Origin: Glutamicibacter nicotianae
Lineage (GTDB): Bacteria > Actinomycetota > Actinomycetes > Actinomycetales > Micrococcaceae
Assembly (NCBI RefSeq): GCF_006539525.1
Contig: NZ_BJNE01000002.1
Coordinates: forward strand, 1 to 64,000
DNA length: 64,000 nt
Direction of reading: 5' to 3'
Positions 61,012-64,000 of the stretch are shown in pieces. Position 1 is the stretch's first letter; each line of letters opens with the position of its first letter. The position numbers were made by a program, and so were the translations under genes. Under the pieces are notes generated by a model that had not been told where the DNA came from, made no database searches, and saw nothing but the letters and a program-made list of their open reading frames with translations.

Positions 61012-61848
61012 ATGACTGTTCCTGCCATCCAGAACTCTTCGTCCTACTACTCGAACTTCGGCGGCCACCCGCCGCAGAGCGATCTGCTCACCGACCGCGC
61101 CATCGTCACCGAGGCCTACACGGTCATCCCCAAGGGCGTGCTGCGCGACATCGTCACCAGCGTCTTCCCCGAGTGGACCAACACCCGCGCCTGGGTGCTG
61201 AACCGCCCGGTGGCCGGCGGGGCTACCACCTTCGCCCAGTCCATCGTGGAAGTCGCCCCCGGCGGCGGTGCCGAGAAGCCGGAACCGCAGGCCGAGGTGC
61301 AGGGATTCATCTTCGTGCTCACCGGCCAGCTGACCTTGGTCATCGAGGGCACCGAGCATGTGCTGGTGGACGGCGGCTTCGCCTACCTGCCGGCCGGCGC
61401 CACCTGGTCGGCACGCAATGACGGTACCGAGACCACCAGCTTCCACTGGCTGCGCAAGCGCTACGAAGTCCTGGCCGGCGTCGCGGCTCCGGGCCCGGTT
61501 GTGGGCAACGAACGCGACATCGAGCCTGGCCCGATGCCGGGCACCGATGGCAAGTGGCGCACCACTCGCATGCTGGATCCCGAGGATGTGGCCTTCGACT
61601 TCGGCGTGAACATCGTGACCTTTGAACCAGGTGCATCCATCCCGTTCGCTGAAACCCATGTCATGGAGCACGGCCTGTACGTGCTGGAAGGCAAGGGTGT
61701 GTACCGGATGAATGGCGACTGGGTCGAGGTCGAGGCCGGGGACTACATGTCCCTGCGCGCCTTCTGCCCGCAGGCTTGCTACGCCGGTGGGCCGGAGAAC
61801 TTCCGCTACCTGCTCTACAAGGACCAGAACCGCCAGATCGCGTTGTAA
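61012..61848 (+). CDS. allE: (S)-ureidoglycine aminohydrolase
   Basis: A manganese bicupin of 278 residues that releases ammonia from (S)-ureidoglycine to give (S)-ureidoglycolate in allantoin breakdown. RAWVLNRPVAGGATTFAQSIVEV and FIFVLTGQLTLV form the first cupin. ETHVMEHGLYVLEGKGVYRMNGDWVEVEAGDYMSL carries the second-cupin metal ligands (E, H, H), with a further Gln in the CPQACYAGG region. It lies ten bases after the HpcH-like gene. Its presence ties the malate synthase operon to purine catabolism. Confidence 0.93.
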   Translation: MTVPAIQNSSSYYSNFGGHPPQSDLLTDRAIVTEAYTVIPKGVLRDIVTSVFPEWTNTRAWVLNRPVAGGATTFAQSIVEVAPGGGAEKPEPQAEVQGFIFVLTGQLTLVIEGTEHVLVDGGFAYLPAGATWSARNDGTETTSFHWLRKRYEVLAGVAAPGPVVGNERDIEPGPMPGTDGKWRTTRMLDPEDVAFDFGVNIVTFEPGASIPFAETHVMEHGLYVLEGKGVYRMNGDWVEVEAGDYMSLRAFCPQACYAGGPENFRYLLYKDQNRQIAL

Positions 61849-62101
61849 GCGTTCATTTCCAGAGACTGCCGGGGCCGCACCCCGCGCCGACCCGCCGACT
61901 ATCGGCGCACCGTGTCCATTTCATGTTCCAGTGATGTTTCCTTTGCTCGGACATGGTGGGCTGACGGCCGGGTCGCGCGGGATGCGGCCTCCGGTTTTGG
62001 GTTCCGGCTGTTGCCTGAGAGCCAAACGATTATCAGGTCCCATGCACCACAAATATCGGCAATATCGGTTGGCATCCGGGCAGGCGAGGGAAGCGCGAAA
62101 T

Positions 62102-62117
62102 CAGCCAACGTTGGCTG
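62102..62117. promoter_or_regulatory. perfect palindrome with CCAACGTTGG core
   Basis: CAGCCAACGTTGGCTG, 16 bases. It shares its central ten bases with the palindrome at 62161, and the centres are 62 bases apart. Confidence 0.5.
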
Positions 62118-62160
62118 TCCTGGGAGTGGGGGCTTATCTCTGCACCCGTGAGGAGCATGA

Positions 62161-62182
62161 AATCGTCCAACGTTGGACGATT
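62161..62182. promoter_or_regulatory. 22-bp perfect palindrome
   Basis: The inner bases read TCGTCCAACGTTGGACGA, flanked by AA and TT. The length and the central CG suit a dimeric repressor of the LacI or TetR type, but no gene is nearby. Confidence 0.5.
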
Positions 62183-62416
62183 CCAAAGTGGAGGTCATGC
62201 ACGACAGGCGTGGGCAGCACTTTAGTTGTGTCAGCAGGAAAGACATGGATACGGGTTCGACTTTCTGCCGGCAAATTCGGACTGGCGCTACGCTTCTGCT
62301 GAGATCATGTGTTGATGCTCCACAGGATCGATGACCTGACCCGAGCGTTCGCCAGTGGACAGGAGCAGCAGGATGAATCATTTGCGTGCCCGTAATCGGT
62401 GAAAACATCCGCTATC

Positions 62417-62542
62417 TGTAATTGCTGGAACTGAAATCTGTAATTGTTGTGCTCCCCGAAGATCAGGAAATCCGCGTGATTCAAGGGATCAAGGGCCGTC
62501 GCTTGTAATAGTTGAGATCTGTCCAGCTAATTGTTGGTAACT
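62417..62542. repeat. four degenerate GTAATTGTTG repeats, possible IS end
   Basis: TGTAATTGCTGG (62417), TGTAATTGTTGT (62439), TGTAATAGTTGA (62504) and CTAATTGTTGG (62527). Multiple short repeats near an end are typical of IS21-family elements; no transposase remains here. Confidence 0.35.
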
Positions 62543-62789
62543 AAATGTTGCTCCGCTACGGCCAGGTCTCCAGTTGTGGTGCGCACCGTCGTGGTGACCT
62601 CCCCGCCCAGTCCAGAGCGGTCAGGTACGTCGGTTCGCCGCTCCAAAGCAAGCCGTTTTCCGGCTATCCGCTGAAGATCAGCCGCCACATGTGCGTGCGG
62701 TGGTGTGAGTGAAAATTTATGGTTTCAACCTCGCGCTTCTGTGCCGCCGGGGGGGAAGACCCGAGGGGTGTCGCCCCCCCTAGTTCGAT

Positions 62790-63190
62790 GCCCAACGTGG
62801 CCAACGAAGGGTCCCCGGGAATGCGTTCCTGCTCAAGGCGCAGTCCGCCTTGGATGCGCAATAATTCGTAGGCCCCGACCTCGTTGGGCAGCAATTCTGC
62901 AGACGCCGCCCGGGTCAGCCCTTGGCATGGGGTGTCGCCAGCTGCGCGAAGCGCTGGAGTGTTCCGGGGTCCATCATCATTGATCGGGCATCGGGCCGCA
63001 CGCTGCGCAATGACGCCAGGATTGCCAGTCCATCCAGATCAACATCGCCCCAGTACAGCACCTCGATACGCACCACCCAAGGAATCGGAGCACATAGCGT
63101 ACGTCGTAACCGCCGCCGTGCAGCGCAACCACCCCGGGCGGTTCGGGCAGGGACAGCAGCGTCTGCAGGTTTTCTACGATTAGTACGGCC
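62790..63190 (-). pseudogene. remnant of Wadjet protein JetD (DUF2220 C-terminal part)
   Basis: Three consecutive pieces in three reading frames match the JetD C-terminal Toprim-like domain. First, near 63180-63080, VLIVENLQTLLSLPEP and VVALHGGGYDVR. Second, in the frame ending at 62915, VLYWGDVDLDGLAILASLR and ARSMMMD. Third, in the frame read at 62894, LLPNEVGAYELLR and GGLRLEQERIP. Two frameshifts separate them, and the 5' half is missing because yoeB ends immediately upstream. JetD is the nuclease subunit of Wadjet plasmid defence. No jetA, jetB or jetC is in the window. Confidence 0.75.
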
Positions 63191-63199
63191 GGACGCCAT

Positions 63200-63454
63200 T
63201 CAATAGTGGTATCGGGCTTGAAGGATGATCAAGTCTTCTTCGATCACGATGTAGACCAGTCGGTGTTCGTCGGTAATCCGACGGGACCATGAGCCGGAGG
63301 CCCCGTATTTCAGCTGTTCGGGCTTTCCAATCCCTTGGAAGGGATCCGGAAGGCATGCTTCGATCAAGGTGTTGACTCTCTTGAGTACGCGCCGGTCGGC
63401 CGTTTGCCAGTGGACGTAGTCGTCCCATCCTGCCCGATCCCAGACGAGCCGCAC
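63200..63454 (-). CDS. yoeB: YoeB family toxin
   Basis: A ribosome-dependent mRNA interferase of 84 residues, the normal length. RLVWDRAGWDDYVHWQTADRRVLKRVNTLI, DPFQGIGKPEQLKY, SWSRRITDEHRLVY and the C-terminal ILQARYHY (catalytic His-Tyr) are all present, so it looks intact. It begins with GTG directly after the antitoxin stop. Confidence 0.92.
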   Translation of the reverse strand: MRLVWDRAGWDDYVHWQTADRRVLKRVNTLIEACLPDPFQGIGKPEQLKYGASGSWSRRITDEHRLVYIVIEEDLIILQARYHY

Positions 63455-63706
63455 TTATTCGTCCCAGTCGAGTTCGTGGGTCTCTGTTATTCCTGACCGT
63501 GCACGTTCGTAGGCATCCAAGAGCCGCCGGGCATTGGCTGGCGAGCGGAAGAGGTACGCGGTCTCTTGCCATGCTGCGTATTCATCTGCTGCCATGAGAA
63601 CAGCATTTCCCTTGCGTGACACGATTTCGACAGCTTGGCGATCATCGTTGACTTGTTCAATCAATGGAAAGAGCGTCTTGCGGGCTTCGCTTGCACTGAT
63701 GGACAT
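63455..63706 (-). CDS. yefM: YefM family antitoxin
   Basis: 83 residues. MSISASEARKTLFPLIEQVNDDRQAVEIVSRKGNAVLMAADEYAAWQETAYLF is the standard Phd/YefM DNA-binding fold, with an acidic tail ending ETHELDWDE that neutralises YoeB. AAGGAG stands upstream of the ATG. The pair is probably autorepressed. Confidence 0.92.
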   Translation of the reverse strand: MSISASEARKTLFPLIEQVNDDRQAVEIVSRKGNAVLMAADEYAAWQETAYLFRSPANARRLLDAYERARSGITETHELDWDE

Positions 63707-64000
63707 CTCGGACTCCTTCCACTACTTGCCGTACCACTTAATGGTGCGACTTAACTGCGGTGTGGGGAAGTGCCCGTCCGACTGGAAAGCCCCGTGCAAC
63801 TGCGCCGTGAGGGGCGGCGCCGCCGCTAAGGGAACGCGCCAATAGGCGTGTAACATCTCCAGTAAGTCCAGCGTAATTAACGGCCAAGTCAGGCATGTTC
63901 CTTGGCGATTGAGGTCGTCGCCAGTGTTGCAGCATGGTTCACATTGACATTTGCCGGCGGACTCTTAGGTGGCTCAGGCAGACGTGGAAATTTTCGAGTC
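63707..64000. other. window end, open frame without visible start
   Basis: On the minus strand a frame without a recognisable start reads LLEMLHAYWRVPLAAAPP and ends LSRTIKWYGK just before the yefM ribosome site. I do not recognise it. It may be the end of a gene beyond the window or non-coding. Confidence 0.3.

Follow-up and report, generated by a model that had tools for sequence, protein, structure and literature searches.

The 64,000-nucleotide window analyzed here, which begins a 414-kb contig of Glutamicibacter nicotianae (genome G000), carries a broken jetD gene that is probably what remains of a type I Wadjet operon after a deletion fused the jetD stub to a neighboring yoeB-yefM toxin-antitoxin pair. 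Wadjet is an anti-plasmid defense system that needs both JetABC and JetD, the latter being the MksG nuclease. Since the site lacks JetABC and its JetD is no longer whole, no Wadjet defense is expected, and the system of G000 is, to judge from the sequence, dead. What is left is an unexceptional fossil, the outcome of ordinary decay at a variable defense locus. The comparison set consisted of 17 other Glutamicibacter genomes, making 18 with G000. The features of the region are as follows.

61012–61848, plus strand: cupin gene (ureidoglycine aminohydrolase/allE-like), anchoring the variable site on its left and conserved in 18/18 genomes
61849–62777, no strand: spacer, equivalent to the jetD 3' flank in G001 (78% identity to 62766) and partly kept in G011 (to 62114)
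62778–62918, minus strand: third frame of the jetD remnant, residues ~334–381, with the LRLEQERI motif (E363/E365 equivalents)
62919–63095, minus strand: second frame of the jetD remnant, residues ~275–334, with WGDVDLDG (D292 equivalent)
63096–63192, minus strand: first frame of the jetD remnant, residues ~243–274, with VEN (E249) and GGYD (Y271)
62915–63199, minus strand: 94-aa open frame beginning directly at the yoeB stop (TGA followed by ATG)
63187–63192, no strand: probable deletion junction; the homology to G001 jetD ends at 63192, and the homology to the yoeB side of G004/G016 starts at 63187
63200–63454, minus strand: yoeB, intact 84-aa mRNA interferase toxin (Pfam E=7.4e-36)
63455–63706, minus strand: yefM, intact 83-aa antitoxin (Pfam E=3.9e-16)
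63707–63772, minus strand: region upstream of yefM, common to G016 (to 63772) and G004 (to 63750)
64063–65175, beyond the window end: cobW-like GTPase gene

The jetD remnant and the adjoining toxin-antitoxin pair

The minus strand of 62778–63192 corresponds to JetD residues ~243–381 of 382, that is, the last ~37% of the protein with its Toprim nuclease domain, distributed over three frames. The JetD_C profile (PF09983) matched two minus-strand frames, at 62933–63088 (E=3.9e-14) and 63073–63189 (E=7.1e-5), both exceeding the Pfam curated cut-off, and the PADLOC JetD1 models agreed (E=1.1e-18 and 6.7e-9). The intact JetD of G001, for which the best-matching solved chain was MksG of C. glutamicum (8b7f, E=2.9e-44), aligned to the window in three overlapping stretches (residues 245–292, 278–352, and 332–381) with 62–68% identity. 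The frames split at two single-base deletions, 63095/63096 and 62918/62919. Profiles and alignment thus agree with the initial annotation, which had recognized a decayed Wadjet jetD gene from Toprim motifs in three frames. The interval it gave, 62790–63454, contains the remnant but also takes in the whole yoeB gene, and the loss it described as the front half of jetD is real yet exceeds half, ~63% of the gene being gone.

In other respects the remnant departs from type I Wadjet (JetABCD)/MksBEFG, which it resembles by the JetD_C and JetD1 models: only the Toprim third is left, in three frames, and jetABC is absent from the site. The active-site residues discussed for MksG are E236, Y258, D279, E349, and E351 (PMC10123090). 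In the alignment they correspond to E249, Y271, D292, E363, and E365 of the G001 JetD, and codons for all five persist in the remnant, scattered over the three frames. The N-terminal domain (residues 1–242) is absent in addition to the two frameshifts; the stub cannot make a nuclease. Codon changes specific to G000 numbered 15 non-synonymous against 18 synonymous in this weak test, which suggests that constraint was only mildly relaxed; the loss may be fairly recent, unless the ratio reflects the weakness of the test.

The toxin-antitoxin genes lie directly upstream of the remnant, the antitoxin gene first and the toxin gene adjacent to it, both intact. The encoded YoeB aligned end to end and without gaps, over 84 aa, with E. 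coli YoeB (2a6q), and E46, R65, H83, and Y84, which we take to be the catalytic residues, were conserved. No notable difference from the E. coli YefM-YoeB type II system was seen, and the pair is presumably an ordinary working toxin-antitoxin module.

A frame starting immediately after the yoeB stop had also been pointed out initially. This holds for the middle frame but not for the one where homology to jetD starts: the 94-aa open frame is out of frame across the first jetD stretch and only then in frame for residues ~275–334. We judged it fortuitous. It is highly improbable that translation coupled to the toxin-antitoxin operon yields from it a small partial JetD-Toprim protein that has acquired a new function, such as binding to the genus-wide orphan JetABC described below.

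The variable site between the cupin and cobW genes

The genus shows wide variation at the site between the cupin and cobW genes, which may repay a search for defense genes. The two genes are separated by only about 0.2 kb in G007, G013, and G014, while G015 carries 10 kb of metabolic genes there. G004 and G016 have yefM-yoeB between cobW and the cupin gene and no Wadjet. The cargo of G001 is a 22.6-kb island with jetABCD, type I restriction-modification genes, and two transposases; its jetD is full length (382 aa) and is followed by jetC, jetB, and jetA, operon and cupin gene being convergent. In G008 (Glutamicibacter protophormiae JCM 1973), jetABCD is complete, though rearranged, and cobW separates jetD from the cupin gene. 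The comparison with sister strains that had been proposed at the outset revealed jetABCD at the same site in both G001 and G008, and the G001 island bears out the earlier view of a former, now inactive defense locus. The G000 remnant occupies the same position next to the cupin gene, but the jetD genes of G001 and G008 are full length and that of G000 is not.

The jetC gene of G001 (L045:12624-16002) is split by one frameshift into an N-terminal part of ~450 aa and a C-terminal part of 673 aa, reflecting either early inactivation or a mistake in the assembly. Part of the cupin 3' end (46–163 bp) was present a second time downstream of the gene in G001 (L045, L064), G015 (L051), G004 (L047), and, weakly, G008 (L046); in G001 and G015 it lies on the far side of the cargo. 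These copies suggest recurrent island insertion at the end of the cupin gene, with differing content. No integrase stood out among the ORFs listed at the site, and no duplicated cupin 3' end was found in G000.

Origin of the junction

The alignment of G000 with G001 starts at the cupin gene, runs unbroken along the 0.9-kb spacer into jetD (82.5% identity over 1806 columns), and ends at 63192. On the other side, 63187–63772 aligns to yefM-yoeB of G004 and G016 with ~83–87% identity. The two homologies overlap by only ~6 bp, reading GGCCGG in G000 and G004/G016 and GGTCCGG in G001; the microhomology is therefore short (~4–6 bp) and needs a one-base gap against G001. Matches to jetABC were absent from the site in G000, and no other jetD was found in its genome. 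The missing front part of JetD was not found in the whole G000 genome by a search that contained no positive control; the same kind of search does find JetD in G001 and G008. That the jetD match ends where the toxin-antitoxin match begins, with the missing part of jetD found nowhere, points to a deletion junction between neighbors.

In the ancestor, jetABCD and the cupin gene would have been convergent, as in G001, with yoeB-yefM further along beside cobW, as in G004 and G016. A deletion of at least ~6 kb, as judged from G001, would then have proceeded via the ~4–6 bp of shared sequence at 63187–63192, taking out jetABC together with codons 1 to ~242 of jetD (the front ~63%) and so bringing the stub up against the 3' side of yoeB. 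We infer that the two modules were neighbors in a single ancestor and that the junction arose in one event; Wadjet and the toxin-antitoxin pair were not found side by side at the site in any genome compared, and the pre-deletion state is a reconstruction. In Clostridium cellulovorans, jetABCD is on record as lost within a 23-kb deletion that arose spontaneously, and 5-bp repeats flanked a separate deletion, of cas, in that strain (PMC12287153).

The right side of the junction underwent further changes, as ~240 bp upstream of yefM (63772–64013) had no match in any relative compared. On flanking DNA, G000 groups with G001 and G011 in a clade with support of 98/96, and G004 and G016 belong to a different one. 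G011 retains 270 bp of the Wadjet-side spacer and no jet gene, so the operon was probably lost twice within the G000/G001/G011 clade.

The initial annotation had proposed that YefM/YoeB replaced part of jetD or was inserted into it. Insertion of the module into jetD, followed by later loss of the front half and jetABC, would explain a junction inside the gene, and toxin-antitoxin pairs are common passengers of mobile regions, with yoeB homologues at several other positions across the genus. This course of events is nevertheless unlikely. G004 and G016, whose sites contain no jetD, have the pair in the same position and orientation and with the same flank next to cobW; in G000 it has most likely neither entered jetD nor taken its place. 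Nor was a front part of jetD beyond yefM, a transposase, or a duplicated cupin flank found in G000.

Slightly less likely again is replacement by recombination, in which G004/G016-like donor DNA with yefM-yoeB recombined near cobW and at short jetD homology, overwriting jetABC and the front of jetD. The identity of the toxin-antitoxin segment to genomes of a different clade would agree with this, as would the situation in the closest relatives, the pair not being found in G001 and G011 having only a distant broken copy elsewhere. But the adjoining cobW is 92% identical to that of G011 and 79% to that of G004, and 64013–64300 matches G011 and G001, not G004; any donor segment must therefore end before cobW. 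There is hardly any chance that the frameshifts stem from faulty assembly and that the cell produces a shortened JetD, a reading that the surviving active-site codons would suit, because the site has lost the front ~242 codons of jetD and the whole of jetABC whether or not the frameshifts are real.

The locus documents the disappearance of an anti-plasmid system with both neighboring states visible in relatives. It also calls for caution, since where a toxin-antitoxin pair abuts half a defense gene, the cause can be a deletion, with no insertion or hybrid system involved. Titles and abstracts of the literature contained nothing on point about Wadjet decay beside toxin-antitoxin genes or in Glutamicibacter.

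Related sequences elsewhere

It had been suggested that jetA-jetC remnants be sought beyond 64 kb. None occurred at the site, and the sole JetA and JetC matches elsewhere in G000 were distant (26–28% identical), in a jetABC locus without jetD on contig C10. This locus (L068:8076-13549) has the order jetA-jetB-jetC and is MksBEF-like, and its JetC is present in 18/18 Glutamicibacter genomes. JetD_C matches were obtained in only 5 of the 18 genomes, and none lies beside the C10 jetABC in G000. On sequence grounds, the C10 locus resembles an MksBEF condensin, a different family, and is not the lost partner of the jetD remnant; it is apparently a genus-wide condensin without its nuclease. Among plasmid-borne proteins, a search for close relatives of JetD gave a best identity of 34%.

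The cupin-jetD spacer contains palindromes with the core CCAACGTTGG at 62099–62120 and 62162–62181, in a stretch partly common to G001 and G011. The spacer palindromes (GTCCAACGTTGGAC) were rejected as a dispersed repeat because that form occurs once in the genome; the GWCCAACGTTGGWC form likewise has one occurrence.

In both relatives with the toxin-antitoxin genes beside cobW, yoeB seems broken, by a flagged stop codon in G004 (L047:11426-11677) and by an internal deletion in G016 (L048:12465-12682). In both, yefM aligns over its full length, and the pattern looks like loss of the toxin with retention of the antitoxin.
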